A stretch of DNA of 37,917 nucleotides from Gemmatimonadota bacterium (GTDB taxonomy: Bacteria > Gemmatimonadota > Gemmatimonadetes > Gemmatimonadales > Gemmatimonadaceae): contig JAQBPY010000388.1 of the NCBI GenBank assembly GCA_028287285.1, positions 1-37,917 of the forward strand. Direction: 5' to 3'. Positions 4,684-31,703 of this stretch are shown here, piece after piece. The notes beneath the pieces are model-generated. The model was not told where the DNA came from, made no database searches, and saw only the letters and a list, made by a program, of their open reading frames with translations. The position numbers and the translations under genes are program-made. Position 1 is the first letter of the stretch. Each line of letters opens with the position of its first letter.

Positions 4684-4777
4684 TACCCGCCCGTGAGCCT
4701 CCAATGACGGAGGCATGAAGTGGATATTACAATTCGATGACCGCCCCGAGATACACCGATCTCCGAGAGATGAAACA

Positions 4778-5257: not shown

Positions 5258-5270
5258 ACGCGGGCAGCCG

Positions 5271-6054: not shown

Positions 6055-6074
6055 ATATGCCACCTCCTGGTTGC

Positions 6075-6117: not shown

Positions 6118-6129
6118 ATGTGCTTCCGG

Positions 6130-6660: not shown

Positions 6661-6797
6661 TGATCATCCTCCCATTGAAGCGTGCTGGAATCGTTCCCTC
6701 GACGTGGCGGGACGCGCGAAGGGAACGTATCTCTGAGCATGCGAGCGGCAACCACCAGTCGGATGGCGCGACAGAAATTGATTCACCCATCACTCAA

Positions 6798-8360: not shown

Positions 8361-8365
8361 CAGTA

Positions 8366-8992: not shown

Positions 8993-9046
8993 CGCCGCCA
9001 ATGTTGTATCATGCATGACACTTCACATTCCACGCCCCGAGGGGTC

Positions 9047-9334: not shown

Positions 9335-9340
9335 GGGAAC

Positions 9341-9363
9341 AAGCAGGTTCTTCGCTGCGCTCA
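9341..9363. repeat. short dispersed repeat copy
   Basis: AAGCAGGTTCTTCGCTGCGC followed by TCAG matches a short unit seen several times in this window, with consensus core AGGTCCTTCGCTGCGCTCAG. Other copies are at 9538-9576, 21957-21977 (inverted) and 21993-22009; weaker matches lie at 2-27 (inverted) and 2611-2630. All are between genes. Confidence 0.65.
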
Positions 9364-9369
9364 GCCAAC

Positions 9370-9486
9370 TGTCATCCCGCAGGAGCGCAGCGACTGTCGG
9401 GAGATACTCTCCAACACTGGTGGCACGTCTGGCGCAAAGACCGGGACAGTATCTCCCGACACGCGCAGGGCGCGTGCGGGATGACA
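9370..9486. repeat. palindromic dispersed repeat, copy 2
   Basis: 117 bp bounded by the perfect 12-bp inverted ends TGTCATCCCGCA and TGCGGGATGACA. The arms continue inward (CTGTCGGGAGATACT on the left, AGTATCTCCCGACA on the right), matching the element at 4180-4285. It lies between the convergent pterin dehydratase and Bax-inhibitor genes and encodes nothing. The resemblance to short palindromic MITE- or REP-like elements is by form only. Confidence 0.8.
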
Positions 9487-9537
9487 ATCGCGACGCTGCC
9501 ACTGTATCCCGTAGGAGTGAAAAGGACGAAAGGGAAA

Positions 9538-9576
9538 GCAGGTCCTTTGCGTTGCTCAGGATGACAAGGGACCTGC
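9538..9576. terminator. hairpin built from a dispersed repeat
   Basis: An eight-base stem, GCAGGTCC (9538-9545) and GGACCTGC (9569-9576), closes a 23-base loop that contains GCGTTGCTCAGGATGACA. It is followed on the plus strand by CTTTT. It sits just past the end of the minus-strand Bax-inhibitor gene and about 200 bp after the plus-strand dehydratase gene. It may act as a weak bidirectional terminator; the large loop lowers confidence. Confidence 0.4.
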
Positions 9577-9585
9577 CTTTTGCGA

Positions 9586-10272
9586 TCAGATCCGGCGACG
9601 GCCGCCGCCGAGGATGTTGACGATGGCCAGGAAAAGATTGAGCAGGTCGAGATAGATCTGCACGGCCGCCAGCACGTAGTCATCGGGCCCGTACTGTCCG
9701 GACCGCACGATGCGCCACGTGTCGAACACCAGCAGGCCGCTGAATACCAGCACCGTGCCGGCGGAGATCCACAGCGACACGAGCGCGCTCTGGAAGAAGT
9801 AGCTCAGCAGCGACGTGGCGATGAGCACCCACAGGCCGACCATGAAGAAGCTGCCCCACGCGCTGAAATCGCGCTTGCTCATGACGGCGTACAGTGACAA
9901 CACGCCAAAGGTGGACAGCGTGAGCAGACCCGCCTGGCCAATGATGCCCGGCGTGCGCGATTCCGCGAAATACAGGAACGGCGCGATGAAGATGCCCTCG
10001 ATGAACGTGAAGACGAGGGTCAGCAGGATATTCGCCGGATAGGTGCGGTGCGCGCGCATGGCGAACCAGAGCGGCGCGAACATCGCGATGAACGTGATGA
10101 ACGGGTGCTCCGCCGTGGCCGCGAATACGCCCGGCTGCGACAGGCAGAATGCGACGCCCAGCGCCGTGACGATGACGCTGATGAAGACGAGGCCATAGGT
10201 GCGGCGGACGAGTGCAGCGCGCTCTTCGCCGCTGCGGACCACGGTCCCGACGTGGAGACGGGAGAAACCCAT
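9586..10272 (-). CDS. Bax inhibitor-1 / YccA family membrane protein
   Basis: 228 aa with seven predicted membrane helices, the standard size for bacterial BI-1 (UPF0005) proteins. Typical features: an N-terminal cytosolic stretch ending in RRTYGLVFISVIVTALG, the TFIEGIFIAPFL helix, LVFSGLLVFDTWRIVRSG, and the final DDYVLAAVQIYLDLLNLFL with Asp residues in the last helix region that form the pH-sensing pair in homologues. The family is linked to calcium leak and FtsH-dependent proteolysis in other bacteria; its role here is unknown. It stands downstream of the sigma-factor operon but is separated from it by a hairpin. Confidence 0.93.
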   Translation of the reverse strand: MGFSRLHVGTVVRSGEERAALVRRTYGLVFISVIVTALGVAFCLSQPGVFAATAEHPFITFIAMFAPLWFAMRAHRTYPANILLTLVFTFIEGIFIAPFLYFAESRTPGIIGQAGLLTLSTFGVLSLYAVMSKRDFSAWGSFFMVGLWVLIATSLLSYFFQSALVSLWISAGTVLVFSGLLVFDTWRIVRSGQYGPDDYVLAAVQIYLDLLNLFLAIVNILGGGRRRI

Positions 10273-10309
10273 TGCTAGAAAGCTCCGTTTGAGGCTACAC
10301 GGAATATAC

Positions 10310-10340
10310 CCCGGAGATGGCGGCGGGAGCCATCTCCGGG
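10310..10340 (-). terminator. 12-bp stem hairpin after the DUF4097 operon
   Basis: A perfect inverted repeat, CCCGGAGATGGC (10310-10321) and GCCATCTCCGGG (10329-10340), with a 7-base loop lies 14 bp past the stop of the last DUF4097 gene and before the Bax-inhibitor gene on the same strand. No long T-run follows (TATATT only), so it is either an imperfect intrinsic terminator or an mRNA 3' stabiliser. Confidence 0.6.
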
Positions 10341-10353
10341 TTCCGCCGCCGCC

Positions 10354-11178
10354 CTAGCGCTTTCGCAGCTCCACGTTCCCGTTCACGGTCGTCAGCCGGA
10401 TCCGGCGGCCCCCCTTGCCCAGCGTGGCGCGGAGGTGGCGCGGGTCGATCCGGCCCGTGATCGTCACGGGCCAGTCGGTCTGGAAGCGGCCATTCACCGT
10501 GGTGAGGTCGATATTGGCGTCGATGTCGCCGGTGAACTCCGCCACCACGGACCCGTTCACCGTGGTGAACTCGAGGTCCTGGTCGCCATCCCAGCGCCCC
10601 ATCGAGGCGTGCACGCTGCCATTCACGGTGCTCGCCTGCACGGGCCCACCGGTGCTCGTGGCATTCACTTCCCCATTCACGGTGGAGGCACGGACTTCGT
10701 TCGTCACGCCGTCAACGCTCACGCCGCCGTTCACCGTCCACGCGCCCACCTTCACTCCCCTGGGCACGCGAATCTCGAACTCCACGGACACGTCGTTCCG
10801 GTTGTCGCGATTGTCGTCCCAGTCGCGGCGCCGCTGGTTCCGATTGTTGTGGGTCGAGTAGCTGTTCTCGGTGCACTCGGTGTCGTCGGTCCACATCGCA
10901 CAGACGAGAATGCTGCCGTCGCCCGATTTCTTCATCTCGATGCGGACGTCCCTGGGATCCCCGCGGCGCCAGCTCTTCGTTGCGGTGACCTCGACCTTGT
11001 CGCTCGTGGACGACCGGACCCGCATCTCGCCGTTCAGGTTGCGAACGCGAATCCACTCGCCGTTGGGCACGCGCTCGCTCATGGTGAACGCATCACGCTG
11101 CGTTTGGCGGGACTGGGCGGACATCACCGTGGGCGCGACAAGCGCGGCAGTGAGCATGACCCTGGAAAGCTGCCGCAT
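10354..11178 (-). CDS. DUF4097 exported beta-repeat protein (second)
   Basis: 274 aa. Signal peptide MRQLSRVMLTAALVAPTVMSAQ, then a beta-rich domain of the DUF4097 putative-adhesin type. The motif TVNG recurs six times (TVNGGVSV, TVNGEVNA, TVNGSVHA, TVNGSVVA, TVNGRFQT, TVNGNVEL), with one earlier NLNGEMRV, at roughly 20-30 residue steps, as expected for turns of a beta-solenoid. A central Asn/Arg/Asp-rich loop (about residues 120-135) interrupts it. The ATG at 11178 has AGGAGG upstream, which rules out the longer frame. It is the fourth gene of the ECF sigma operon, 35 bp after the first DUF4097 gene. Molecular role unknown; envelope location inferred. Confidence 0.88.
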   Translation of the reverse strand: MRQLSRVMLTAALVAPTVMSAQSRQTQRDAFTMSERVPNGEWIRVRNLNGEMRVRSSTSDKVEVTATKSWRRGDPRDVRIEMKKSGDGSILVCAMWTDDTECTENSYSTHNNRNQRRRDWDDNRDNRNDVSVEFEIRVPRGVKVGAWTVNGGVSVDGVTNEVRASTVNGEVNATSTGGPVQASTVNGSVHASMGRWDGDQDLEFTTVNGSVVAEFTGDIDANIDLTTVNGRFQTDWPVTITGRIDPRHLRATLGKGGRRIRLTTVNGNVELRKR

Positions 11179-11213
11179 CGCGGCCTCCTGTGTGATGAAG
11201 TGCGTTCGCACGG

Positions 11214-12221
11214 CTACCGCCGGCGCCGGATGTTGATGTCGCCACTGAAGGTCTCGGCGCTGATCCGTGCGGATCCGTGACCAACGGTAAAGGTGAGGCG
11301 CTTGGCCTGGGCGGCACCGATGCCGTGCTGGCCTGCCTTGAGCGTGATGGGGAAGTCGCTCTCGATACCGCCGTTGAACGTTGCCAGGCTCAACTCGGCG
11401 CCGATGGCCGCCGGCAGCCCCAGCGTGATCTCGCCATTGTGGGTGTTGAACTCGTACCGGCCGCCCTCGATGATCTGGCCAATGAACGCGATCTCGCCGC
11501 TCGTGGTGTGCGCGCGAACCTGTCTGGAGGTGATGTCGCGCAGGTCGACGTCGCCGCTGACGGACTCGATGACGACATCGCCTCGCGCACCCGAGAGTGT
11601 GATGCTGCCGCTGATGGTATGGATGTTCGATTCACCCGCCACGCCCGCGATGGTGACGTCGCCGGAGAGGCTCTCGAGGTCCACACGGCCACCTGCATCA
11701 CGGACGTCGACGTCGGCACTCTGGGCATGGATGTCGATGATGCCCTTTACACCTTTCACGCTCACCGATCCGCTCCAGCTGCTTGCGACGACCTTCGTCC
11801 CGATGGGCACGATGACGTCGAAGTGGCCATCGCTGCATCCCCGGCCCGACGCCGGCTCGAGTGACGCCTGCGAGCCATTGCTCGTGAAGCGAATTGCCCC
11901 ATTCTCGGTGCGGGCACGAATGCGAATCTCGTTGCGGCTCCCGCCGGTGACGATGACCGCGCCACCTGGGCAGCTCACGGTCAACATTCCGCTGGCATTG
12001 AAGGTGACGGTGGTGTCGAGCGAGCCCGCGCGATCGCGTTCCCGGCGTTCCTGCGCCTTCTCGGCGGCGCGCTCACGGCGTTCCTGCTCCCGGTCGCGGC
12101 GCGCCTGCTCCTTTTCCTGTGCTCGCTCGCGCGCGCGCTCCGCACTCGACGGCTGCGCCGAGACGTGGATGGGAAACGAGAGAGACAGTACGGCGGCCAC
12201 TACGATCGTTGCTCTGAACAT
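11214..12221 (-). CDS. DUF4097 exported beta-repeat protein (first), with charged linker
   Basis: 335 aa from the ATG at 12221 (AGGGGA six bases upstream). The frame stays open far upstream, but that is a shadow of the anti-sigma gene. Signal peptide (TIVVAAVLSLSFPIHVSAQ), then about 40 residues of almost only E, R, A, Q and K (roughly residues 25-65, probably a single long charged helix), then a beta-repeat domain with S/N-G turn motifs: SWSGSVSV, SLSGDVTI, TISGSITL, SVSGDVDL, TTSGEIAF, THNGEITL, TFNGGIES, TFSGDINI. It follows the anti-sigma gene by 8 bp. Its function is unknown; the operon suggests an envelope-stress role. Confidence 0.88.
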   Translation of the reverse strand: MFRATIVVAAVLSLSFPIHVSAQPSSAERARERAQEKEQARRDREQERRERAAEKAQERRERDRAGSLDTTVTFNASGMLTVSCPGGAVIVTGGSRNEIRIRARTENGAIRFTSNGSQASLEPASGRGCSDGHFDVIVPIGTKVVASSWSGSVSVKGVKGIIDIHAQSADVDVRDAGGRVDLESLSGDVTIAGVAGESNIHTISGSITLSGARGDVVIESVSGDVDLRDITSRQVRAHTTSGEIAFIGQIIEGGRYEFNTHNGEITLGLPAAIGAELSLATFNGGIESDFPITLKAGQHGIGAAQAKRLTFTVGHGSARISAETFSGDINIRRRR

Positions 12222-12229
12222 GATATCCC

Positions 12230-13000
12230 CTAGGTGCGCGAAGGCAGCGACGCCGCTGTCCGCAGCAGATCGACTTTCTTTTCGAGCGAACGATTGAGTT
12301 GTGTAGCGAGAAACGCGCTGGCGGGATCTTTCGAGAGTGCCGCACGGCTCTGCGCGATGGCCGAGTCGATCACGGCAACGCTCTGCTCCAGGATGGCGAC
12401 CGTCCTGGGATCGAGCTGTGCACGACGTTCCTTGACCAGCTTGCGCAGCTTGCTGATCTCTCCGTCGAATACAGGCTCGGCGGCCAGCATGGCAGGCTCG
12501 GCACTTGTGACGCGGGCGGCATTGATGAACCGGCCCGTGCGTTCGGTTGCCGTGGAAACAAATTCCGCCGTGGGCTCGCTGGCGACGGGCGCCGCCGCGA
12601 CAACGACAGGTGTCGTTGTCGCAGTGAGCGAGGCGCGCGTGGCGTAGTGCGTCACGCCTGCCGTGAAAACAACGAGCGCGGCGGCGGCCGCCGCCGGAAT
12701 GATCCACGTGCGCCGCTTTGGCGCAGGACGCGCGATGCGCGAGGCATCCAGCGGAATGACGCGGGTGTCGATACGCTCCGAGATGCCGGCCCACAGATCG
12801 CGCGATGGTACCAGCGGCGGAAGCGCGGCGGCGTCCGTCCGTATGGATGAAAGATCTGCGAGCAGCTGCCGGCACGCCGCGCACGAGCCCACGTGGAGCT
12901 CCACGGCAGCGCACACCTCCGGCAAGGCATCGCCTTCGAGGTAATCGGCCAGCGCTTCGGCAAATCCGTCGCAATTCATTGGTTGATACGATGTGGTCAT
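12230..13000 (-). CDS. zinc-finger anti-sigma factor
   Basis: 256 aa. The N-terminal anti-sigma zinc domain has the HxxxCxxC motif (H36-C40-C43; HVGSCAAC) with C10 and C30 upstream. One membrane helix follows (about residues 99-117), then a periplasmic domain of about 140 residues containing a predicted coiled helix (ISKLRKLVKERRAQLDPRTV). Such proteins hold an ECF sigma factor at the membrane until a signal releases it. The ATG at 13000 overlaps the TGA of the sigma gene (ATGA), which is classic for sigma/anti-sigma pairs. The signal is not known. Confidence 0.92.
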   Translation of the reverse strand: MTTSYQPMNCDGFAEALADYLEGDALPEVCAAVELHVGSCAACRQLLADLSSIRTDAAALPPLVPSRDLWAGISERIDTRVIPLDASRIARPAPKRRTWIIPAAAAAALVVFTAGVTHYATRASLTATTTPVVVAAAPVASEPTAEFVSTATERTGRFINAARVTSAEPAMLAAEPVFDGEISKLRKLVKERRAQLDPRTVAILEQSVAVIDSAIAQSRAALSKDPASAFLATQLNRSLEKKVDLLRTAASLPSRT

Positions 13001-13566
13001 TTGCTCAATGCCTCTCTCAACAACATTCTCGCGCGATGGAGCTGTGCCTTCGTCGCCCCGGTCGTGACGCCGAGCATCTCGGCGATTTCTTCGTGTTTGT
13101 AGCCTTCCACATCGTGCAGCGTAAAGACTCGTTTGGCACCCTTCGGGAGCTTGTTGATCGCCATCTCCAGGTCCATTCGGTCCCCTCGCTGGTGCGTCCT
13201 GCTGGGCAGGTGATCAATGGCATCGCCTTCGTCGTCGTCGTCGTACCGCGATCGCTGCCGGCCCTCGGTTTTCCGGTCGTTGAGCACCACGTTCACCGTG
13301 AGCCGGTGCAGCCAGGTGCCGAACGCACTTTCCCCGCGGAACAGCGACAGCTTCTCCCACGCCCGCACAAAAACGTCCTGCGTGAGCTCCTCGGCGCGCG
13401 TGCGGTCGTTGACCATTCGTGCGCAGAGGGAGAAGACCCGCACGGAGTGAAGACGGTAGAGCCGCTCGAAGGCGCGACGGTCCCCCGCAGCCGCCAAGGC
13501 TACGTCCGGGTCAGCGGAATAGGTGGGTGCCGCCGTCGTCGGTTCTGGAAAGGCCACTGCGGTCAT
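12997..13566 (-). CDS. ECF-type RNA polymerase sigma factor
   Basis: About 189 aa from the ATG at 13566 (a GTG at 13593 is also open; neither has a strong ribosome-binding site). Region 2 is clear (FERLYRLHSVRVFSLC, then AEELTQDVFVRAWEKL and FGTWLHRLTVN), followed by an acidic linker (RYDDDDEGDAID) and region 4 (LPKGAKRVFTLHDVEGYKHE, then IAEMLGVTTGATKAQLHRAR). It probably directs transcription of its own operon, which encodes its anti-sigma factor and two DUF4097 proteins. I could not recognise its promoter motif in the 50 bp upstream. Confidence 0.94.
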   Translation of the reverse strand: MTAVAFPEPTTAAPTYSADPDVALAAAGDRRAFERLYRLHSVRVFSLCARMVNDRTRAEELTQDVFVRAWEKLSLFRGESAFGTWLHRLTVNVVLNDRKTEGRQRSRYDDDDEGDAIDHLPSRTHQRGDRMDLEMAINKLPKGAKRVFTLHDVEGYKHEEIAEMLGVTTGATKAQLHRARMLLREALSK

Positions 13567-13648
13567 CAGTCGTCTGGGTGTTCCCTTGTGCACTCATTGG
13601 GATACCCAGACAGGGTGGAAGGTTTGAAGTGATAGCGTACTCAGGTGT

Positions 13649-14344
13649 TCAACCCGGACCTGGGTGGGCGGACTTTCCTTCGTCATCGCGCTCATCCAGC
13701 GGGAAGGCTGCCACAATAGTCTCGAGCTCGCCGATGGTGTTAATGACGGCTTTGGCGCCCGATTGTTCCATCTGGTCTACACTGAACGCACCCCATGTTA
13801 CACCAACGGTAAAGACGTTGGCGGCGTTTCCGGACTCGATGTCGTGGGGGCTGTCACCGACAAAAATCGCGTGAGTGGCCGGCACGCCCAGCAATGCCAG
13901 GGCTCGTTCGACCGGTTCCGGATGGGGCTTGTGGTTGGTGCAGCTGTCGCAGCCGACCACCACGGGAATGATGCCGGCGAGGCCCACGAGCTTCAAGCCC
14001 TGCTCGGCGAGCCAGCCGGCCTTGCTGGTAACGAGCGCCAGTGGATGGCCGGCGGCGGCGAATTGGTGCAATGCGTCCACGACGCCGTCGTACGCGCGCA
14101 CGAGCAGGTCATGGTGCTCGCGTTGATACTCCCGGTATCGCGCCAGCACGCGCTCCGCCTCGGCGTCGCTCTCCGTCCACTCGCGAATCGTGTATTGCAG
14201 CGGACGTCCGATGCCCGCCCGCCATTCGTCGTCGGTGGGCGTTCGGCCCGGAGCGCCATCGAACGCGAAGCGTGCGGAGCCCAGTATGAGCTCGATGGAA
14301 TCGATGAGCGTGCCGTCGAGGTCGAACAGGAGTGCAGGGCGCAT
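13649..14344 (-). CDS. HAD-family phosphatase, phosphoglycolate-phosphatase-like
   Basis: 231 aa from the ATG at 14344. A haloacid dehalogenase hydrolase of subfamily IA: motif I LFDLDGTLIDS (nucleophile Asp8, acid/base Asp10), a helical cap, motif II LALVTSK, a Lys in NHKPHPEPV, and motif IV FVGDSPHDIESG. The closest characterised types are phosphoglycolate phosphatase (Gph) and pyrophosphatase PpaX; substrate specificity cannot be read from the sequence. It is transcribed divergently from tex, with about 140 bp between. Confidence 0.9.
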   Translation of the reverse strand: MRPALLFDLDGTLIDSIELILGSARFAFDGAPGRTPTDDEWRAGIGRPLQYTIREWTESDAEAERVLARYREYQREHHDLLVRAYDGVVDALHQFAAAGHPLALVTSKAGWLAEQGLKLVGLAGIIPVVVGCDSCTNHKPHPEPVERALALLGVPATHAIFVGDSPHDIESGNAANVFTVGVTWGAFSVDQMEQSGAKAVINTIGELETIVAAFPLDERDDEGKSAHPGPG

Positions 14345-14484
14345 GGTGAATGATATCACCTCGGGCCACTGATCGAGAGAAACGTCGCCGTCAAGCCGTT
14401 GCACACATGGCTCGCGTCGATCAGCTTGCGCGTCCCCGATATTGGCGCCGTCGCGCCGTCACCGATTCGCGTGTGGTCATAGAG

Positions 14485-16764
14485 ATGGAACTCCTTCAGC
14501 TGTCCCAGATTGCCCATGCCGTTGCCGGCGAGCTTGCACTCCAGCCCCGCCAGGTGGCGAGTGTGCTCACCATGTTCGGTGAGGGAAACACCCTTCCGTT
14601 CGTCGCCCGGTACCGAAAGGAAGCCACCGGCGGGTTGGACGAAACGCAGCTCCGCGCCATCCAGGACCGCTCCGAGTATCTGCGCGAGCTGGGTGACCGC
14701 TCAGCCGCGATCCGGAAGTCCATTGACGACCAGGGCAAGCTCACGCCGGAATTGATCACCAGGCTCAATGCGGTCACCACCAAGCAGGAGCTGGAAGATC
14801 TCTATCTCCCGTAAAAGCCAAAGCGCCGTACCCGCGCGATCATCGCGAGGGAGCGCGGCCTCGAGCCCCTCGCTGATGCGATGTGGAGCGGCGAGTTGAC
14901 CGATGCCGCGGCACTCGCAGCGGCAGCTGGCTACGTGAGTGCAGAGAAGGAGGTGCCGACAACTGACGACGCACTCGCCGGAGCACGCGACATCCTGAGC
15001 GAGCGGTTTGCCGAAGACGCGGACAACCGCTCGTGGGTCCGTGATCTCACGAGACGAAAGGGCGTGGTCACGTCGAAGCTCGTGACCGGCAAGGACGAGG
15101 AGGCCGCCAAGTTCCGCGACTACTTTGATTTTTCCGAGCCACTGGGCGCCATTCCATCGCACCGCGTGCTGGCGATTCGGCGTGGTGAGGACGAGGGCAT
15201 GCTGGCATGGACCGTTACGGCGCCCGTTGATGAAATCAACAATGGGCTGATTGCGCGCGTGCAGCATGGCCGTCGCGCACTGGCGCAGCTCGAGCTCGTT
15301 GCGCGCGACGCGTACAAGCGGCTGCTCGCCTTTTCCATCGAGGTCGAGATTCGACTCGAGCTCAAGACGCGGGCGGACGAAGAGGCGATTGCGATTTTCG
15401 GGCGCAACCTCGAGCAGCTCCTGCTCGCCGCGCCTGCCGGGGAGCGCATCGTCATTGGCCTGGACCCGGGATTCCGGACGGGCGTAAAGGTGGCCGCGGT
15501 GTCTCGCACCGGAGCCGTGCTGCATACCGACGCGTGGATGCTGCACCAGCCGGATCGTTTTGCGGCGTCACTCGTTCGGCTGGTGACGTCATCGTCTGCT
15601 CAGCTCATCTCCATTGGCAACGGCACCGCATCGCGCGAGACCGAAGCCCTTGTGAAGGCAACATTGCGAGACGCAAATCTTGCGGCGCCGCCGCAGGTGG
15701 TGGTCGTGAATGAGGCGGGCGCTTCGGTGTATTCGGCGAGCGAGCTGGCACGCGATGAGCTGCCGGGTCTCGACGTGTCGCTGCGCGGCGCGGTGTCCAT
15801 TGCGCGACGTCTGCAGGATCCGCTCGCCGAGCTGGTGAAGATTGATCCGAAATCGATTGGCGTTGGGCAGTACCAGCACGACGTCGACCAGCGGCGTCTC
15901 AGAAAGCGGCTCGAGGACGTCGTGGTCAGCGCGGTGAATCGCGTGGGTGTCGAGGTGAACACCGCGTCCGTGGCGTTGCTGTCATACGTCTCGGGCATTG
16001 GGCCGGGCCTGGCGCAGAGCATCGTCACGCTGCGCGACGAGCAGGGCGGCTTCAAGTCGCGCAAGGCATTGCTTGCCGTGCCGCGCCTGGGCGCCAAGGC
16101 GTTCGAGCAGTCGGCGGGCTTCCTCCGCGTCCGCGGTGGAGCGCATCCGCTCGACGCAAGCGCCGTGCACCCTGAGCGCTATGCGCTGGTGGAACGGATG
16201 GCAACGGACGTGGGCGTATCACTCGCGGAGCTCATCGCCAACGAGAGCAAGGTCGAGGCGATTGCGCTGGAAAAATACGTTACTCCCGACGCGGGTCTTC
16301 CCACGCTGCGGGACATTCTCGGCGAGCTCAGGAAACCCGGCCGGGATCCGCGTGCCGCCTTCGAGGCGCCGGCATTTCGTGATGACGTCACCGAGCCGAA
16401 AGACCTGCGTGAAGGAATGGAGCTCGAGGGGGTCGTGACCAACATTGTGGCCTTCGGCGCCTTCGTGGACATTGGTGTGCATCAGGACGGTCTCGTGCAC
16501 GTATCGCAGCTCGCCGACCGCTTTGTCAGCGATGTGAACCAGGTGGTCTCGGTAGGACTCCGGGTAAAGGTGCGAGTGGTGAGCGTGGATCTTGCCCGCA
16601 ACCGTATTGCGCTCACGATGAAGTCCGCGACTGCCGACAACCGGCCCAGCGCGGGCGCGAAGCCACGCGTAGACAGGGTGCCGCAGAAACAGCCACCAAA
16701 GCCGGAAACGTTCACCATTCCAAAGCCGGGCGCAATTGCGCCGAACGGTATGCGGTTTCGGTAG
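14485..16764 (+). pseudogene. tex: tex, S1-domain RNA-binding protein, interrupted by one in-frame TAA
   Basis: Tex (YhgF) is a nucleic-acid-binding transcription accessory protein. Residues 1-109 match the Tex N-terminal helical domain (VLTMFGEGNTLPFVARYRKE). The frame then stops at TAA 14812-14814, exactly where the conserved LYLPYKPKRRTRA has Tyr: the DNA reads LYLP-stop-KPKRRTRAIIARERG. Without a frame change the protein continues to 16764, through the YqgF/RuvC-like domain (RIVIGLDPGFRTGVKVAAVS), the helix-hairpin-helix region (LLSYVSGIGPGLAQSIV) and a C-terminal S1 domain (LEGVVTNIVAFGAFVDIGVH). All else is intact and the total of about 758 codons is normal, so this is a single recent nonsense change or a sequencing error. 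A restart downstream would lack most of the N-terminal domain. Confidence 0.88.
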
Positions 16765-16807
16765 CAGCTCCTTCGCTTCGTTCAACACGACGGATACCTT
16801 TTCCCAA

Positions 16808-17362
16808 ATGCTCATGCGCCGCGCCTCCTTCTCCGCCCTCGCGATTGCCCTCGCCGGACTCACCGCCTGCCAGAGCAGCGGTACACCCGCCGCTGCGGCC
16901 GCAAATACGAATGCCATGCCCCCACGCCTGGGGCCGAGCGTTGAAGCGCAGACCATGGAGCAAGCAGGCGAATACCTCACCATCGTGGGCAGCTGCAACG
17001 ACTGCCACACCCAGGGGTGGGCCGAATCAAAGGGCAAAGTTCCGCCGGCCGATCGCTTCGCCGGTCTCGACGTGGGCTTTCGCGGAGACTGGGGCACGGT
17101 CTACGGCAAGAACCTTCGCACCATCACCCAGCGCCAGAGCGAAGACCATTGGGTCGAAGTGCTCAAGACCGCCGATGGCGGCGACGGCCATCCGCCCATG
17201 CCGTGGTGGAACACGGCGCAGATGAGCGACCGCGATCTCCGCGCCATGTACCGCTACATCAAGTCGCTCGGACCCAATACGAAGGGTGTTCCACGCAACC
17301 TGAAAGCTGGCGTCGAGCCGAAAGGACCGTATATCTGGGTGACACCAAAAACCGGTCCGTAA
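16808..17362 (+). CDS. c-type cytochrome lipoprotein
   Basis: 184 aa from the ATG at 16808. A lipoprotein signal ends in the lipobox LTAC (Cys21), followed by an Ala-rich linker. The single haem site is CNDCH (C63, C66, His67), and a probable distal ligand is the Met of HPPMPWWN. It carries one electron in the periplasm, anchored by lipid. No oxidase or dehydrogenase lies beside it, so its partner is unknown. The frame is open to 16736, but that start would put extra residues before the signal peptide. The penicillin-acylase-like gene follows within a few bases and may be co-transcribed. Confidence 0.9.
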   Translation: MLMRRASFSALAIALAGLTACQSSGTPAAAAANTNAMPPRLGPSVEAQTMEQAGEYLTIVGSCNDCHTQGWAESKGKVPPADRFAGLDVGFRGDWGTVYGKNLRTITQRQSEDHWVEVLKTADGGDGHPPMPWWNTAQMSDRDLRAMYRYIKSLGPNTKGVPRNLKAGVEPKGPYIWVTPKTGP

Positions 17363-24010: not shown

Positions 24011-25054
24011 ATGTCCATACTCGGAATTCGTTTCCCGGCCCTGCTGCTCGGCGCATCACTCATGGCCCCTCGTACGGTGCACGCCCAGTGGACCGCACAG
24101 GCCAGCGGAACCACGGCGGAGTTTCGCGGCCTGAGCGTGGTGTCGCCCACGGTTGCGTGGGTGAGCGGCATGCGCGGCCTGGTTGCCCACACGCTCGACG
24201 GGGGTGGCCACTGGATCCTCGACACGGTCGCGACGGCGTCGAAGCTCGACCTGCGTTCCATCGCGGCCACGTCGGCCCGCGTCGCGCACGCGATGAGCAT
24301 CGGCGATTCGTCGCGCATCTTTCGTACGACCGATGGTGGCCGGTCATGGACGCAGCAATTCATCAGCCTGAAAAAGGGCTCGTTCTTCGACGCGATCCGT
24401 TTCTGGGACGAGAAACATGGCATCGCCGTCAGTGATCCCGTCGACGGAAAATTTTTGCTCGTGACCACGAGCGACGGCGGTGACACGTGGCAGGAAATTT
24501 CCTCCGCCGCCATCCCGCATGCACTTCCGGCCGAAGGTGCGTTTGCCGCGAGCGGAAGTGCGCTCGCGGTGTGGGGTAAGAGCGACGTCTGGTTCGTGAC
24601 GGGCGGCGCAGCCGTGGCGCGCATCTATCATTCGCCCGATCGCGGCAGGAGCTGGATGGTACACGACACGCCGCTCCGCGTTGGTGCTGCTTCCACGGGG
24701 GTTTTCTCGGTGGCATTTCGCGACGCGAAGCATGGTGCCATCGCCGGTGGCGACTACGCGAAGCCCAGGCTTGCGGGGCGCAACCTTGCACTGACCTCGG
24801 ATGGCGGCCGCACGTGGACGCTGGTGGACAGCGCGACGTCGCCGGCGGGCTTCCGCTCTGCTGTTGCGTTCGTGCCTGGAACCGCAGGCAAACGCCTCAT
24901 CGCGACCGGGCTCTCCGGCACTGATCTCTCGGCCGATGGTGGCAAGACATGGACGCCGATGGATACGGTGGCGTACAACTCGGTGGTGATGTCGGGGAAT
25001 GTGGCGTATGCAACGGGGCCGCGGGGGCGGGTGGCTCGGTGGGTTGCTCGCTGA
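24011..25054 (+). CDS. YCF48/BNR-repeat exported beta-propeller
   Basis: 347 aa with a signal peptide (GIRFPALLLGASLMAPRTVHAQ). Repeated blades carry Asp-box-like motifs: TLDGGGHWILD, TTDGGRSWTQQ, TSDGGDTWQEI, SPDRGRSWMVH, TSDGGRTWTLV and SADGGKTWTPM. This is the pattern of YCF48-type and sialidase-like propellers. YCF48 itself is a photosystem II assembly factor, but such proteins are widespread in non-photosynthetic bacteria with unknown roles. It is convergent with the helicase gene; the 86 bp between them show no clear terminator. Confidence 0.9.
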   Translation: MSILGIRFPALLLGASLMAPRTVHAQWTAQASGTTAEFRGLSVVSPTVAWVSGMRGLVAHTLDGGGHWILDTVATASKLDLRSIAATSARVAHAMSIGDSSRIFRTTDGGRSWTQQFISLKKGSFFDAIRFWDEKHGIAVSDPVDGKFLLVTTSDGGDTWQEISSAAIPHALPAEGAFAASGSALAVWGKSDVWFVTGGAAVARIYHSPDRGRSWMVHDTPLRVGAASTGVFSVAFRDAKHGAIAGGDYAKPRLAGRNLALTSDGGRTWTLVDSATSPAGFRSAVAFVPGTAGKRLIATGLSGTDLSADGGKTWTPMDTVAYNSVVMSGNVAYATGPRGRVARWVAR

Positions 25055-25140: not shown

Positions 25141-27321
25141 TCATGGCCCAGCGATGACGAGTGCGACAATGGTGGGTGGCGCGTTCTTCACTTGCCTGTC
25201 CCCGCCGCTCCGGTGGGTCGTGGCCGCGGCTATCACGCTTGCCATCGTTTCGAGCGTGGCGTGCAGCTCGCTAAAGCCCACCGATGCCAGCGCCGCCAAC
25301 TGGCGCTCGGCGCCAATACCAAACGGCACTCGCATGCCACCGCGAATGGTCGATGTGAGACGGAGTACGACCGGCAATTGGTGCCTGGGGACTTTCGCGA
25401 TGGCCGTGCCGAGCCAGCGCAGCACGAGTTGGCGTTGCGGTCCGTCAGCGCCATCGAGCCCGGCCACGGAAGCCAGAAAGCTGGCCGACAGCCACTCGTC
25501 CACCTCGCGCATGGCGTTGCGCAGCTCACACGGCTCCAGTGAACGAGGTAGGCCGTTGGCAATTTGAACAGCCTGAGCCAGTCCGGAAAGAATCGTTTGC
25601 GGCGTTTTGTTCAGTGACGCATGCAGGCATCCGTCACTGAACGCGGCCAGCCACAATCGTTCCGTGCTACGCACGCCAGCCACGATGCAGCTCCTGCCTG
25701 TGCTTCCCGTACCGCGATGCCACGTACTGATCTGCTCGATGTAAGCCCCCTGAGCTGTCGCAGCGGAGCTGTCATCAATGCTCGATGCGGCCGCCATGTG
25801 CGGCAATACCGCAAAGTTCTCCCCGACTGCTCTGACCGTTGTTTCGAGCTTCTTACGCAACCGCGCCTCGACGTCGAGAAGTATGGCGGCATTTGTGGGC
25901 GGTGACATCAGATACGATTGCACTTCCGCAGACCCGCCCGGACGCCTGACCCGCCCAACGCGCTGCGCCATCTTCGCGGGATTCCAGGGCAGGTCAAGGT
26001 GCACGACGACGTCTGCGTCCTGCAGGTTGACACCCTCCGACAGGAGATCAGTTGCGAGAAGCAATGACACGTTCTCACAGAGCGGTGGCGAGTGCCTCCC
26101 CTGCGCCACCGGTGAAAAGTTGCCGAGCAGGTCGTCGCGCGAGATGCGTCCACTGGCAATGCGCGCTTCGTTGGCCGTGAGCATGCCCACACCGGCATCG
26201 TTCCTCAATGCGCAAAAGAGCGCACCAACCGTGCTGGCGAATTCACTGAACGCCAGGATGCGCGACGCGGGGTGCTCTCGCCGCAATGCCCGCAGGGCTG
26301 CGGCACGCGCAACATCAGGATCGGGAAGTGTTTTCAGCAACGCGAGCAGCCGTTGAATGGAGCCAAGATCATCACGGACCACCGCGTCGGTCATGTGTCC
26401 GGACGACGACACGAGCAGCGACGCAAATCCCAACTGGATCACGTCGTCCGCGCCGGTCCATGCACGGGCTTCTCGCCGCGTTGGAGTACGCCCTGCCTCG
26501 AGGGCTTGTTCGATTGCCGTGGCCACTCGTCGCCGTGCATGAAGTGTTGCCTGCAGGGCCGCCCGGCTGGAGGCCCACGCACGAACGAGATTGATCGTGC
26601 GCAGCACGCCGGCGTCCCCGCCGTCAAGGGGCCGCGCGGCAGGTGCAAGATCGAGAATTGCCGCGAGTATTTTGGTGTCGTCGACGTCCAGCGGCAGCCA
26701 CTGCGGTGGCGCGACCATCGGCATGTTCAGTACCGCGGAATCGCTGCGAATGATGAACCGCGACAACTCCGTCATCCCGAGAGCGAACGCGCGCTCGCCG
26801 AAGAACAGGGCAATTTGTGCCGCGAGGTCACGCGCGCGATTCTGCAATGGCGTGGCCGACAACAGGATGATCGGAGCACGCGCCGCCAGTGCAGCAAGAC
26901 CTGCGTATCGCCGGGTGGCCGGCGTACGAAAATGATGTGACTCATCAACGATGATTCCATCGAATGGCCTGATCGGGACATGCCCGCGGCTCAACGACTC
27001 GTGTGACTCGAACACGTGCTCCACGCCAGCGCGCTGGGCTGCCATGCGCCAGGTTGATCGAAGCGCGGCCGGCCCGATGACCAGCGGTGCATCCCAGCGT
27101 CGCGCGATGGCGAGTGCGACAAACGTCTTTCCTCGGCCCACATCCTCTCCGATCAGGCATCCGCCTACGCGATCCAGTGCGCGCCCTGCGCGCGATACGG
27201 TCAGCCGCTGGTCCGCACGCAGGATGACGTCACCGAGTGCCGCGTCCGGAAGAGCATCGAGTGCGGCACGAGCGATGGCCGCCCGCGCGGCCCTCAGGTG
27301 GAGGTCGGAGAGTGACACCAC
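25141..27321 (-). CDS. SNF2-type helicase of a methyltransferase-helicase pair
   Basis: 726 aa superfamily 2 ATPase. Motifs: an early Gln motif (ILRADQRLTVSRAGRAL), Walker A GEDVGRGKT (about residue 60), DESH (about 125), SATP (about 153), then in the second lobe ILAFSEFAST, LLLATDLLSEGVNLQDADVV (about 425), HLDLPWNPAKMAQRVGRVRR (about 455). The order and the WNP-QRVGR block fit SNF2/RapA-like translocases, including DISARM DrmD. A C-terminal region of about 230 residues has no recognised fold and no visible nuclease motif. Its start lies 28 bp inside the end of the methyltransferase gene, so the two are one translational unit. The likely role is ATP-driven movement on DNA in a defence or restriction-like system; this is inference. 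Confidence 0.9.
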   Translation of the reverse strand: MVSLSDLHLRAARAAIARAALDALPDAALGDVILRADQRLTVSRAGRALDRVGGCLIGEDVGRGKTFVALAIARRWDAPLVIGPAALRSTWRMAAQRAGVEHVFESHESLSRGHVPIRPFDGIIVDESHHFRTPATRRYAGLAALAARAPIILLSATPLQNRARDLAAQIALFFGERAFALGMTELSRFIIRSDSAVLNMPMVAPPQWLPLDVDDTKILAAILDLAPAARPLDGGDAGVLRTINLVRAWASSRAALQATLHARRRVATAIEQALEAGRTPTRREARAWTGADDVIQLGFASLLVSSSGHMTDAVVRDDLGSIQRLLALLKTLPDPDVARAAALRALRREHPASRILAFSEFASTVGALFCALRNDAGVGMLTANEARIASGRISRDDLLGNFSPVAQGRHSPPLCENVSLLLATDLLSEGVNLQDADVVVHLDLPWNPAKMAQRVGRVRRPGGSAEVQSYLMSPPTNAAILLDVEARLRKKLETTVRAVGENFAVLPHMAAASSIDDSSAATAQGAYIEQISTWHRGTGSTGRSCIVAGVRSTERLWLAAFSDGCLHASLNKTPQTILSGLAQAVQIANGLPRSLEPCELRNAMREVDEWLSASFLASVAGLDGADGPQRQLVLRWLGTAIAKVPRHQLPVVLRLTSTIRGGMRVPFGIGAERQLAALASVGFSELHATLETMASVIAAATTHRSGGDRQVKNAPPTIVALVIAGP

Positions 27322-30300
27322 GCGATGAGTGGAGTGATGTCAGCCACGCGAACCCAGTACGCCTTGCACACGGCATTGAGCAGGTCATCATTCGTGGGAA
27401 TTTTGCCGAGGAGTGCCCGTTCCGCGAGTGGGACAAGGATACTGCGTGCGCGAACCCAGTCTCGCGGGAGTGGAAGCAGGGAGACAGTCCATGCCAAGTA
27501 ACGATGCCAGCCCCCACGCGCCGGTTCGGCGATGGCATTCAGCCACGCGGCCGCGACGGGACTGTTCAGCAGGACCATGAACGCAAGTGCGTCCTGCACG
27601 TCGTCGCAGCTCAGGACGTAGCAGCTGTTGAGTGGAACGGTGCCGTCACCGGCGCCCAGCAGCGCGGCGCGCGGTGTCCTGCCAAAGTCGCTCCAGACGA
27701 TGCGCGGCCGAGTGGAGTCGGCGCTTTCCGTTCGAAAGAGTGACCACCATGTGGCGCTGCCACGCAGATCGGTGCGTGCGGTGAGCTGACGTCTCCATGG
27801 GCCGAGCCATTTCGCCGCACCCGATGGAAGCGCGCGAATAGGAGTTCCGTGTGAACCATGTGTCCATACGATTGCGTCTCGTGATGGAGGAATGGTCCAT
27901 GCCGTTACCGAATCGCCACGAAGCAGCGGACGGAGCACATCTCGTTCAATGAGGCCCTGCCGTCCGCCACAGGCGACGTTGATGTGATCACCGCTCTCGC
28001 CGATTGCGTCCACGATGAAGGCATCATTGCAACCGCATTTCACGCCGAGCATGGTGCGTCCGAACGTGCTTTCACCGAGTGGTGTGCCGTGCGACACGAT
28101 GCGATCGAATGCGGTGCGCACGTGGGGCGGAAGCAGGAGCCACGGACTCGCACTGTCGCCAGGGATCAGCGCGATGGAATTGGGCAGGGCACTCCATTCG
28201 AGGTCGAGCTCGCGACGTCGAATGGAAATGTGCACCTCCGCTTCGGGCTCACACCGGCGTGACGCAATCATGACGGACGGATACACGGCCGCATCGAAGG
28301 AGGATGGCGCTTCGGACCAGTCTTCCACTACATGAAGGTGGGTGCGGGCTCCGAGCAGCCGTCGAACCCCGCCGCCGGCAAGAGAACGCCACAGCTTGTT
28401 CGGAAGGAGCAGGGCCACGCATCCCGTGGGTGACGCAAGCCCCACGCTCCGTTCAACGAACAGTGCTGCGAGATCGATCTGCGCTGCGAAGCCGCGCGAT
28501 GTACTGCTACCACGTGCGCCGTGCTCCCATGCGGCGTCGCGATAGACCATGAACTTTGCCCGCAGCGCATTCCGGGCAGCGGCTGGAATATTGTGAAGGC
28601 GAACCCAGGGCGGATTGCCGATGACGAGATCAAAGCCGTTTCGGGCATGTGCCGCGCCAAAATGCGAAGGAAACGAGAATGGCAATGCTCCACCGTCGGC
28701 GACACGGCGTCGTTCGCGGCGAAGTGCCGCGGCGCGCAGGCGGTGCAGGCGCATGCGGTCGCGCTCCGCACGCTCCAGCGCGGGTTGCTTGCCAAACAGA
28801 TCCGCGGTGCGTCGTGCACGGATGCGCTCACGCCGTTCATCGGTCAACGCGGCCAACTCCCTGTCCATTGCGGCAATGGCGCGTTTCCGTTCTTCTCGGG
28901 CCAACGCACGACGCAGCGGCGCCTTTTTCGGACCCGTGGCACGCACGTAACGCTCCCGCAGGCGAACGAGAACTGCGGGAGGTCCAACAAGTGTTGGAGG
29001 TTCGGTAAACGCCTCGCCGGCGAGTGTATCGCCAACGCGGATGTTGCAATCGAGGTTCGGCAGGGGAGGCACGGCCCACATCCGCGTCTCGTCACTCTCG
29101 ATCACGACCGACAGCCAGAGGCGAAGCTCGCAGAGCCAGACGGCGGTCGGGTTGAGATCCACGCCGTGAATGGTGCGCGCCAACACCTCGCGACGGATGG
29201 TGGCGAGGGGGCGCGTATCGCCCGCCGCGCGATGGAGGCCGGCGAGACGCTCGAGCATGTACACGAGAAATGCACCGGAGCCACACGCGGGATCGAGTAC
29301 CGTGAACGTGCGAAGAGACACGCGCAGCAGATTCCCGCGCACGTCGTCGAGTCGCGCACCATGGAACAGCGCGAGAAGGTCAGTCTCGGAGATCTGCTCG
29401 CACCGGAGTGCGAGCAACAGGGCCTTGTCTGCCACGTGTGAGACAAGCGATTGCGGCGTGAAAAAAGTACCGCTGAGCCGCCGCTCCCGCCCCGCCATCA
29501 GGCACTCGAAGGCTCGGCCCAGCATCTCGGGATCGATGGCGGCCTCACACCATTCGTCGTGACCCTCACGAGCCGTAAAGCGGTAGGCACCGAGCAGCTG
29601 GCCAAAGAGCTCACCAAACGCGTCATCGGAGAATCGCGCACGGGAATGACGCCGCTCCGGCGCGCTCTTGCTGAATAGTCCGCCATTCAGGAACGGAATC
29701 GACCCGAACGTACGCGAGGCCGCGGACCGATTTCGAATGGGTGTGTTGAGCGTGCCAAAAAACAGAGGCAGGAGCACACGTTGATGGAACCGGCCGCCCG
29801 ATGCCATGCACTCGTCGAAGTGGCGCGCAAGAAATGCATGGTCGCTGTCCAGCCACCCCTTGGATTCCAGGAACGAAAGAAAGAGCAGGCGCGAAACGTA
29901 GAGCAGCGCCAGCTCCGCGCGGTCAGTGGCATTTATTCCCGTGAGCGAGTCGCCAAGCACACGAACACGTTGCTCTAGCGTGCGATAGAAGCGGCGAGAA
30001 AGGGCTTCGCGGCCCAGCAGCTCGTACCAACGTGTGTGCACGAGCAGATCGTCGCCCGTACTCGATGCAGCCAGTGCACACAGCGCCTCCGCATCGCTCG
30101 CCACGATGCGCTTTGGCTGCGACACCAGCGCCACCACCCGCGGTCCGCGCGCCGATGACTGCCAGCATGCCACGCCCACTTCGTCGCCCGCGCTGCCGAT
30201 CACGAGCCACAACACGTGCGACGTGCGTGCGCCGAGGACCGACGCGATTTGTGTAACGAGCGCTCGAAAGGAGAGTTCGTGCGGCGCGGAGACCAGCAGC

Positions 30301-30491
30301 GCCCTGAGTGCACCATGTCCACGAACGATCCGCGCATCGGCGATGGACACGGGAAGGCCAAGCCGTTCACGCGCCGCCGAGTCTACCGGCAGGGCGACTG
30401 GATCGAAGCCAAGGGCGGCCGCGAGAACAACGCAGCCATCAACAGTGTGTGCCGCGGCGAGTCGCTCGGCGGCATGACGAAGGGTTTGCAC
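27294..30491 (-). CDS. large adenine-specific DNA methyltransferase (Eco57I-type)
   Basis: 1065 aa, GTG start at 30491 (an in-frame TAG lies 12 bases upstream). The N-terminal about 330 residues include LALLYVSRLLFLSFLESKGW and FGSIPFLNGGLF, as in type IIG/BREX-like enzymes. Then come motif X (SGTFFTPQSLVSHV), motif I (TVLDPACGSGAFLVYML, about residue 400) and motif IV (FDLVIGNPPWVRLHN, about residue 625), which together indicate N6-adenine methylation. An Arg/Glu-rich coiled insert lies between motifs I and IV. The C-terminal third resembles a TaqI-type specificity domain. I see no PD-(D/E)XK signature, so it differs from true type IIG nuclease fusions. The gene overlaps the helicase downstream and follows a GT2 gene by 57 bp. 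Confidence 0.92.
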   Translation of the reverse strand: MQTLRHAAERLAAAHTVDGCVVLAAALGFDPVALPVDSAARERLGLPVSIADARIVRGHGALRALLVSAPHELSFRALVTQIASVLGARTSHVLWLVIGSAGDEVGVACWQSSARGPRVVALVSQPKRIVASDAEALCALAASSTGDDLLVHTRWYELLGREALSRRFYRTLEQRVRVLGDSLTGINATDRAELALLYVSRLLFLSFLESKGWLDSDHAFLARHFDECMASGGRFHQRVLLPLFFGTLNTPIRNRSAASRTFGSIPFLNGGLFSKSAPERRHSRARFSDDAFGELFGQLLGAYRFTAREGHDEWCEAAIDPEMLGRAFECLMAGRERRLSGTFFTPQSLVSHVADKALLLALRCEQISETDLLALFHGARLDDVRGNLLRVSLRTFTVLDPACGSGAFLVYMLERLAGLHRAAGDTRPLATIRREVLARTIHGVDLNPTAVWLCELRLWLSVVIESDETRMWAVPPLPNLDCNIRVGDTLAGEAFTEPPTLVGPPAVLVRLRERYVRATGPKKAPLRRALAREERKRAIAAMDRELAALTDERRERIRARRTADLFGKQPALERAERDRMRLHRLRAAALRRERRRVADGGALPFSFPSHFGAAHARNGFDLVIGNPPWVRLHNIPAAARNALRAKFMVYRDAAWEHGARGSSTSRGFAAQIDLAALFVERSVGLASPTGCVALLLPNKLWRSLAGGGVRRLLGARTHLHVVEDWSEAPSSFDAAVYPSVMIASRRCEPEAEVHISIRRRELDLEWSALPNSIALIPGDSASPWLLLPPHVRTAFDRIVSHGTPLGESTFGRTMLGVKCGCNDAFIVDAIGESGDHINVACGGRQGLIERDVLRPLLRGDSVTAWTIPPSRDAIVWTHGSHGTPIRALPSGAAKWLGPWRRQLTARTDLRGSATWWSLFRTESADSTRPRIVWSDFGRTPRAALLGAGDGTVPLNSCYVLSCDDVQDALAFMVLLNSPVAAAWLNAIAEPARGGWHRYLAWTVSLLPLPRDWVRARSILVPLAERALLGKIPTNDDLLNAVCKAYWVRVADITPLIAWCHSPTST

Positions 30492-30548: not shown

Positions 30549-31703
30549 TCAGAATGCCGCGCCCGTCAGATACTCGCGGCCCTTCCATCGCACACGCTCC
30601 CCACGGGCAATGGAGTAGAGCACGATGTAAAGAAAAAATGCCGCCCCCAGCGGATAGAGCACCACGTAAACGAGCGAGAGACGCAGCCACGAATAGACCA
30701 GCGTCCACCACGTCACATGAGTGGCCACCACAATCGCTGCCCACAACAGCCACGACCCTCTTGCACCACACAGGATCAGGGAAGGTGGAATGAGTTGCAT
30801 GAGCGCGGGCATGAGGAGCGCCAAGGGAAACAGGATACTTCCCGCGCGGCCATGCGGCATCGCATCCCGCCCGCCAACGAACATGTTCTTGCCCCAGCCC
30901 TGAACGACTTCGCTGAGCGACGTGTACATCCGCGTCGACAGCTGCTGCTGTCCAAGAATGAGGATCGTCCGCCTGCCGGCCAGAAAGAAGCGCTGCGCAA
31001 GCGCGAGATCCTCGGCCACTTGGTCGCGCACGGCGGCATGTCCACCCAGCGCCACGTATGCAGCCTTGACCACGAACAGACATTGCCCGTTGGCAATCTT
31101 GTCGCTTGCACGAACGGACTCGTTAACGGCCTCCGTGCTCCCATACCGAATGGCAAGCATGCTGAACACCTGCGGCTGCACCAGCTTTTCCCAGAAGCCC
31201 ACAAGTTCCTGCGTGCCGCCCACACTCAGGAGGTCGGCGTGGCGAGCGCTCATCGCATTCACGATCCGCGGCACCAGATCCGCCGCTTGCTGTGTATCCG
31301 CGTCCACAAAACCGACGATGTCGCCATGGCTCACCTCGAAGCCCGCCGTGCACGCCCACTGCTTGCCGAACCACCCCGCGGGCAACGGCGCCGGAACGAT
31401 CACGCGCAGCCTGGCATCCTCTGCGGCCAGGGCGGCAAGAATGACTCCGGTGCCATCGGTAGAGTGGTCGTCCACGGCAATGATCTCCAGTCGCGGATAG
31501 CCCGACGCGAGAATCGAGCGAATGCAGCGCTCGATATTGTGCGCCTCGTTCCGCGCGGGAACGACGATCGACACCGGCGGCGCATGCTCGGGCAGGTCTG
31601 CCGAATATTCATCCAGCGATCGCGAGCGCATGAGGCGGAGCAGGGTGACCGCGGGCGTGAGCACCCAGGGAAGCGCGAGAAGTATGGCGGCAGCAGTGGA
31701 CAT
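30549..31703 (-). CDS. family 2 glycosyltransferase with membrane helices
   Basis: 384 aa. An N-terminal membrane anchor (AAAILLALPWVLTPAVTLLR), then a GT-A fold: PPVSIVVPARNEAHNIERCI, IIAVDDHSTDGTG, PAGWFGKQWACTAGFEVSHG, IVGFVDADT (metal-binding DAD), and an acceptor-side VAEDLALAQRF, then three or four C-terminal membrane helices. The layout is like HpnB-type and carotenoid (CrtQ-like) glycosyltransferases, but there are no hopanoid or carotenoid genes beside it. Donor and acceptor are unknown. It is divergent from the LD-carboxypeptidase gene with only 29 bp between starts. Confidence 0.9.
   Translation of the reverse strand: MSTAAAILLALPWVLTPAVTLLRLMRSRSLDEYSADLPEHAPPVSIVVPARNEAHNIERCIRSILASGYPRLEIIAVDDHSTDGTGVILAALAAEDARLRVIVPAPLPAGWFGKQWACTAGFEVSHGDIVGFVDADTQQAADLVPRIVNAMSARHADLLSVGGTQELVGFWEKLVQPQVFSMLAIRYGSTEAVNESVRASDKIANGQCLFVVKAAYVALGGHAAVRDQVAEDLALAQRFFLAGRRTILILGQQQLSTRMYTSLSEVVQGWGKNMFVGGRDAMPHGRAGSILFPLALLMPALMQLIPPSLILCGARGSWLLWAAIVVATHVTWWTLVYSWLRLSLVYVVLYPLGAAFFLYIVLYSIARGERVRWKGREYLTGAAF

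Follow-up and report, generated by a model that had tools for sequence, protein, structure and literature searches.

The locus described here raises the question of what an adenine DNA methyltransferase (MTase) and a SNF2-type helicase do together when no nuclease is recognised in either protein. The two genes lie on a 37,917-base stretch of DNA (hereafter the window), which is the whole of contig C420 of a Gemmatimonadaceae metagenome-assembled genome (MAG; 6.1 Mb, 84% complete). A first-pass annotation of this stretch had described a two-gene unit lacking both a nuclease and the partner genes of known systems, and had suggested a minimal defence system. That description stood up, whereas defence as the role of the pair became doubtful. 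We lean, with reservations, towards the view that the pair would be a core DNA-methylation (epigenetic) module, vertically inherited in Gemmatimonadaceae and allied families.

Both open reading frames (ORFs) were confirmed on the minus strand, each with a GTG start, and their features are as follows.

27294–30491, minus strand: Eco57I-type N6-adenine DNA methyltransferase, 1065 aa (ORF; Pfam Eco57I and N6_Mtase; AlphaFold2 (AF2) pLDDT of 91.4; best fold match CamA)
30051–30491, minus strand: MTase N-terminal alpha/beta domain, residues 1–147, poorly conserved and without a conserved D...ExK (AF2 secondary structure, conservation)
29268–29294, minus strand: MTase motif I DPACGSGAF, residues 400–408, S-adenosylmethionine binding (kept in 50/50)
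28605–28616, minus strand: MTase motif IV NPPW, residues 626–629, catalytic (kept in 50/50)
27468–28154, minus strand: MTase target-recognition (specificity) domain, residues ~780–1008 (alignment to the C-terminal part of M.BseCI; conservation in the window's family equal to that of the core)
25141–27321, minus strand: SNF2-type helicase/translocase, 726 aa, the first 28 nt of its gene lying within the MTase gene (ORF; Helicase_C; AF2 pLDDT of 88.9; Foldseek Chd1/ISW1/RapA)
27124–27138, minus strand: helicase motif I GRGKT, residues 62–66 (conservation)
26935–26946, minus strand: helicase motif II DESH, residues 126–129 (DExH in 50/50)
25942–25965, minus strand: helicase motif VI QRVGRVRR, residues 453–460 (50/50)
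25144–25824, minus strand: helicase C-terminal region, residues 500–726, beta hairpins then helices, no nuclease recognised (AF2, conservation)

The MTase matches Pfam Eco57I (1.6e-16) and N6_Mtase (4e-07), and the helicase matches Helicase_C (3.1e-13), with SNF2-rel_dom slightly below its cut-off (23.1 vs 24.9 bits). The AF2 single-chain models of both proteins are confident; that of the MTase runs from the N-terminal domain through a helical spacer to the catalytic core and the specificity domain. Foldseek returned CamA first for the MTase (7lt5, E 2.2e-22, TM 0.79 on CamA), followed by M.BseCI, MmeI and BrxX, and for the helicase the SNF2 remodellers Chd1, ISW1 and INO80 together with RapA. 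Conservation was assessed in alignments of 50 MTases and 50 helicases of those fetched, from which fragments and some long ORFs were left out. Motif I and NPPW of the MTase, and GxGK, DExH and QRxGRxxR of the helicase, are intact in 50/50 of the respective orthologues.

A clear nuclease domain was found in neither protein, whether by conservation or by AF2 and Foldseek. Across residues 1–165 of the MTase lysine stays below 40% in every column of the 50 orthologues, so that no D...ExK is conserved; a hidden nuclease at this end was rejected for want of conserved catalytic residues, the fold matches to MmeI and BpuSI not having been compared domain by domain. Residues 495–726 of the helicase bear no nuclease signature, the sole strongly conserved polar residue being E672 (43/50 orthologues), and a hidden nuclease there was likewise rejected, with no conserved catalytic residues and none among the top fold matches. 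Only ~60 residues precede helicase motif I, so an HKD domain would not fit, and PLDc_2 is absent from the Pfam matches of this protein.

The distribution of the pair was examined in 298 evenly drawn genomes of the phylum, using the window's own proteins as queries (E ≤ 1e-20). MTase matches were found in 169 genomes, two of which may not be orthologues (G236, 4.1e-22; G109, 3.7e-43), and helicase matches in 160; most genomes hold one match, extra ones being mostly pieces. Within the order the counts are 157/173 for the MTase and 150/173 for the helicase (93/104 and 89/104 in the window's family, f1; 64/69 and 61/69 in the other families), as against 12/125 and 10/125 outside it. Of the two controls, type I hsdR was found in 69/298 genomes (25/104 in f1, 6/69 in the other families of the order) and the PADLOC HKD+Snf2 model in 27/298 (4/104 in f1). 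Set against hsdR, the near-universal pair does not behave as a sporadic defence cassette, although both controls are general profiles run at other thresholds (stricter for HKD+Snf2) than the own-protein queries.

The two genes also stay together. They share contig, strand and order, MTase first, in 125 of the 135 genomes with best matches of both among the matches listed, a count that drew on 148 helicase and 148 MTase genomes of the 160 and 169; nine of the remaining genomes have them on different contigs and one (G025) 12 kb apart. Absence of the MTase is concentrated in small f1 genomes (6/7 of those of at most 2.4 Mb, 5/97 of the larger ones), as expected of loss by streamlining. In G080 the MTase still adjoins core genes, but no helicase could be recognised in the interval up to the next of them, a hint that, of the two, the MTase can be the one kept.

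Trees of rpoB, the MTase and the helicase covered 25 of 28 genomes with rpoB; G012 and G166, where rpoB is in pieces, and G104, which has no called helicase, were left out. The rpoB tree shares 14 of 22 splits with the MTase tree and 15 with the helicase tree, and the latter two share 11 with each other; permuted labels gave at most 3. No rpoB split with support of at least 90 is contradicted by such a split in either tree, and the MTase and helicase trees are in strong conflict once, over the place of G038. Patristic distances correlate at 0.79, 0.80 and 0.92 (rpoB, MTase and helicase trees). Within f1 the MTase has diverged about as much as its neighbours: mean identity is 50% for the MTase, 47% for Nudix, 48% for HAD, 50% for glycosyltransferase and 53% for rhodanese, with 81% for rpoB.

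The dN/dS ratios of six pairs range over 0.15–0.35 for the MTase and 0.28–0.42 for the helicase. These values bear on the idea that the pair is a decaying relic or selfish remnant of a restriction-modification (R-M) system. Such decay could account for the absent nuclease, for the want of the MTase in most of the smallest genomes, for its interruption in G025 and for the missing helicase of G080; yet the catalytic residues are present in 50/50 of each protein, dN/dS is clearly below 1 and the pair persists across an order. We consider a relic very improbable.

The specificity domain of the MTase was compared with its catalytic core. In f1 its identity is 54.9%, as against 55.3% and 52.7% for the two core halves. 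Distant relatives differ from this pattern: at 60–70% core identity the specificity domain is 55.0% identical in orthologue pairs (standard deviation 3.9, n = 271) vs 40.6% in distant relatives (8.3, n = 59), and at core identity above 70% it is 67.3% (n = 19) vs 48.4% (n = 15), the pairwise identities being non-independent and the distant set mixed, with the nuclease-less L130, L132, L133 and L137 and others whose helicase is off the contig. Some distant relatives are 91% identical in the core and only 49% in the specificity domain. The natural reading is that f1 would have kept one recognition specificity, whereas distant relatives appear to change theirs.

The surroundings of the pair were compared in the window and 60 fetched stretches (61 loci), whose genes were predicted with a codon model and then grouped by similarity; the clusters were annotated in part, and Pfam names for six of them were taken from the window copies. 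Ordinary genes recur: a Nudix hydrolase (35 loci), a HAD hydrolase (33), a family 2 glycosyltransferase (30), a rhodanese (28), an ECF sigma factor (26) with its putative anti-sigma factor (24) and an LD-carboxypeptidase (21), as well as repeated proteins that we take to be DUF4097-like (23). The HAD and ECF genes directly follow the helicase in many relatives and lie ~11 kb further on in the window. The gene on the other side of the pair is given for context.

30549–31703, minus strand: family 2 glycosyltransferase, directly upstream of the pair and not a member of it (Pfam; cluster in 30/61 loci)

The pair thus sits among ordinary genes, with no defence genes recognised near it, and its homologues are not always found beside drmA/drmB or pglZ. 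A PADLOC search of 10 further ORFs of the window, some of which may be shadow ORFs, out of ~41 other predicted genes, gave nothing at E ≤ 1e-5. PglZ matches occur in this genome only on contigs C314 and C391, and neither MZB (PF09369), which marks the DUF1998/MZB protein DrmB, nor DUF499 has a match in the 84% complete assembly. When both proteins were compared with defence models, relatives were found in those of DISARM, BREX, Hma and IIG, but the cross-matches are weak: the MTase, for which the best PADLOC label is REase_MTase_IIG, matches IIG enzymes, DrmMI and PglX, and the helicase DrmD, DpdE, BrxH and HmaA, with NCBIfam scores far under the curated cut-offs. A broken DISARM, BREX or Hma locus was rejected because partner genes were not found and the models are far below cut-off, and a recent horizontal island because GC content is uniform across the window and relatives share the locus. 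On the far side of the helicase, and convergent with it, lies a gene for a YCF48-like BNR-repeat protein (24011–25054); similar genes follow the pair in the same genus only.

The first-pass annotation had also suggested that the pair might need a host nuclease. In that case an unlinked nuclease, PLD or other, would act in trans, and the pair would belong to a full R-M system. Candidates exist in the form of three PLDc_2 ORFs (397, 472 and 749 aa) on other contigs of the genome, and relatives of the pair carry a nuclease in cis. Nothing, however, ties these three proteins to the pair, and no nuclease gene recurs beside it among the frequent clusters, annotated in part, of the 61 loci; we regard this explanation as improbable.

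The relatives indicate where the pair may have come from. The named close relatives from a scan with the MTase alignment belong to Gemmatimonadaceae and other Gemmatimonadetes; of the 557 MTase relatives that it gave in named genomes, the top 80 span many phyla, archaea included. A contig scan with a single helicase sequence found no relative, and a plasmid search gave no record with 80% coverage of the helicase. Profile searches located a related helicase on the same strand in 63 of the 80 distant loci; many of the remaining loci stop close to a contig end, but in L161 and L184 the flanks are long and hold no such gene. Beyond what the first-pass annotation had foreseen, these distant helicases (~1050–1170 aa, often encoded before the MTase) bear an N-terminal HKD (PLD) nuclease. 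A Pfam scan of nine found N-terminal PLDc_2 in six (L188, L167, L140, L146, L163 and L142) and in none of the other three (L130, L087 and L137), and an alignment of 41 N-termini shows the HxK residues H and K and the GSSN motif in more than 80%; the HKD domains were detected by profile and Pfam, a strict HxK...D pattern finding few. Helicase motif I starts at residue 59–96 in f1/f2 and mostly at 231–310 in the distant proteins. The HKD domain of the distant helicases makes the window pair a nuclease-less branch, real and conserved, of a known, wider ATP-dependent R-M-like kind, whose nuclease-bearing members probably restrict unmethylated DNA.

Intermediate forms were also seen. Helicases of family f9 (L087–L089 and L093) have, where distant relatives have HKD, an N-terminal extension of ~225–257 residues in which HKD was not detected, and those of f4 have a weak HKD remnant (L092, E 1.1e-4; L090, 0.02; both results from a 15-sequence set). 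The tree of the helicases places the HKD-bearing members in a single clade with support of 100, adjoined by f9 and then by f3/f4. Stepwise loss of the nuclease, rather than its gain, would fit this tree if the root, whose position is an assumption, were on the HKD side. The nuclease-less branch extends beyond the order, since short relatives without the domain were also seen in Myxococcales, an acidobacterium and a deltaproteobacterium. A natural internal comparison is offered by the f1 genome G065, which holds the core pair and, in addition, one with HKD; in the latter (L233, G065:C8, 2912–10361) the MTase relative is directly upstream of the helicase. In L147 (Brasilonema, 2922–7565), one of the 63 loci, the MTase and helicase profiles match one open frame, a possible single-chain fusion. 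No paper was found under the PADLOC model name C3a139 ‘HKD+Snf2’.

We tentatively propose how such a module might work, as a domesticated ATP-dependent R-M-like machine that has lost its HKD domain and had its specificity fixed, and in which a dedicated SNF2 motor resembling a remodeller drives or maintains methylation of the genome. The MTase would methylate adenine at N6, giving N6-methyladenine (6mA), at one sequence that probably varies little, if at all, within the family. The SNF2 protein, the product of the overlapping second gene and presumably co-translated, would be an ATP-driven double-stranded-DNA translocase working in physical partnership with the MTase; it may either carry the MTase along DNA or remove proteins bound there, allowing sites to gain methylation and to keep it after replication. 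An ancestral-type motor would have borne the HKD nuclease, and in its absence the unit would have become fixed. Given a missing nuclease together with a fixed address and specificity, the likeliest benefit is the methylation pattern and not the cutting of foreign DNA. The selected output would then be that pattern, used in a housekeeping role such as gene regulation or the marking of replication or repair.

The interest of the pair lies in the order-wide fixation of an MTase along with a SNF2 motor that powers a nuclease in distant relatives. To our knowledge, the core DNA methyltransferases Dam, CcrM and CamA are single proteins, and we know of no dedicated motor that drives or maintains methylation for any of them. 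The locus lends itself to testing whether a defence-type system has become housekeeping epigenetics, and it predicts that members of one family of environmental bacteria share a 6mA motif.

Several points, besides the unequal controls, weigh against a core methylation module. The MTase is missing from 11/104 family genomes, so the system is not essential, and a mobile element splits the MTase gene in G025. Mean identity of the helicase in f1 is 36%, which implies faster evolution than in most neighbours. The f2 specificity domain, at 43.5%, is looser than the core halves (50.4% and 50.4%), so that the motif may differ between families. Outside f1 and f2, families f4/f9, Myxococcales and a deltaproteobacterium misfit the taxonomy or differ between trees; judging from these trees, inheritance there is not simply vertical and includes some apparent transfers. 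We know of no core orphan MTase that needs a SNF2 motor, the unlinked PLD proteins could act in trans, and core presence by itself is compatible with defence.

The main rival takes up this last point. It holds that the pair confers immunity without a nuclease: the SNF2 motor would recognise an unmethylated invader and block its transcription or replication by translocation, the MTase would mark self, and the defence would have become fixed in the order. Relatives of both proteins are defence proteins, and the helicase is kept with the MTase in most genomes, under purifying selection. Some arms-race pressure would be consistent with the looser constraint seen in the helicase and in the specificity domain of f2. 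DISARM offers a precedent, as its PLD nuclease DrmC is reported to be dispensable and a replication block is proposed in the accessible part of one account (PMC9142583), and fixed systems can still defend. Such immunity fits less well with a near-universal, stable locus of rpoB-like history that has no recognised defence genes nearby and no sign of specificity-domain swaps in f1, in genomes that are known from sequence alone. We think it unlikely, although it deserves serious consideration. The minimal defence system of the first-pass annotation is doubtful on the same grounds (near-universality in the order, ordinary neighbours, an rpoB-like tree and a conserved f1 specificity domain), unless it is one that defends without a nuclease.

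Some individual MTase loci deserve separate mention. In G025, which is of the same genus as the window, the MTase gene contains an 11.6-kb casposon-like element (L055, G025:C3:24501-44400, at 5454–17097) with Cas1 (Pfam 1.6e-42), a small HNH-looking protein (Pfam DUF7097), 40-nt terminal inverted repeats (83%) and a 16-nt direct repeat at its borders. It also encodes a PolB-like protein with a DNA_pol_B_2 match below cut-off (0.0017), whose motifs are presumably those of PolB. A literature search on casposons in Gemmatimonadetes found no paper. The MTase gene is also cut off by contig ends in two more genomes of this genus (L095–L098; G071 and G196), perhaps through insertions or strain variation. 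A second, interrupted MTase copy, 66–68% identical to the window copy, was seen in L094 (G000:C197, 14–1030 and 9359–10363); its residues 1–335 and 732–1061 lie ~8.3 kb apart with another DNA methylase (N6_N4_Mtase) between them, and it may derive from another species in the MAG.

Literature searches on Gemmatimonad (as a stem) with methylation and on SNF2/PLD/methyltransferase yielded nothing on this pair, subscription papers being largely outside their reach. Distribution, synteny and specificity-domain conservation distinguish the orphan-looking MTase–helicase pair from a broken DISARM or BREX. The DISARM proteins DrmD, a SNF2 helicase (NCBIfam 1.1e-19), and DrmMI (PADLOC 3.8e-22) are distantly related to those of the window; the window helicase scores 70.3 bits against a DrmD cut-off of 610, and DrmA, DrmB and DrmC were not found beside the pair. 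BREX combines PglZ, BrxC and PglX in one locus, an arrangement that was not seen here, with PglX models far below cut-off and BrxC not searched with its own model. DUF499-centred BREX-related systems pair an N6-MTase with a SNF2 helicase, with an N-terminal HKD in Type-2, according to the accessible text of a 2026 survey in Nucleic Acids Research (NAR; PMC12839542), in which the stem of Gemmatimonadota does not occur. Such systems (Hma) are defined by a DUF499 ATPase, none of which was found in this genome, and the window MTase has no DUF1156 match.

Type IIG/IIL enzymes (MmeI, BpuSI) share with the window MTase the layout of MTase, helical spacer and specificity domain, with MmeI among the fold matches; they differ in their in-chain PD-(D/E)XK, which was not recognised in the window MTase, and the latter has a separate SNF2 partner. 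The pairs of HKD-SNF2 helicase and Eco57I-type MTase (PADLOC C3a139) resemble the window pair in their homologous MTase, their SNF2 core, the C-terminal part of the helicase and their organisation as one unit, and differ from it by the N-terminal HKD, which the window helicase lacks, and by fast-diverging specificity domains. The closest solved structure to the window MTase is that of CamA, the core orphan adenine MTase of Clostridioides difficile, for which we know of no helicase partner. Core orphan MTases of the CamA/CcrM-like kind are a known class, according to the accessible parts of two sources (PMC8407109, PMC13395437), the second of which describes CamA as nuclease-free and maintained throughout its lineage. 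The window MTase shares the traits of this class, being near-universal and apparently vertical, with no cognate nuclease recognised in a genome that has unlinked PLD proteins. CamA, at ~575 aa, is kept in one species, whereas the window MTase, at 1065 aa, is kept across an order.

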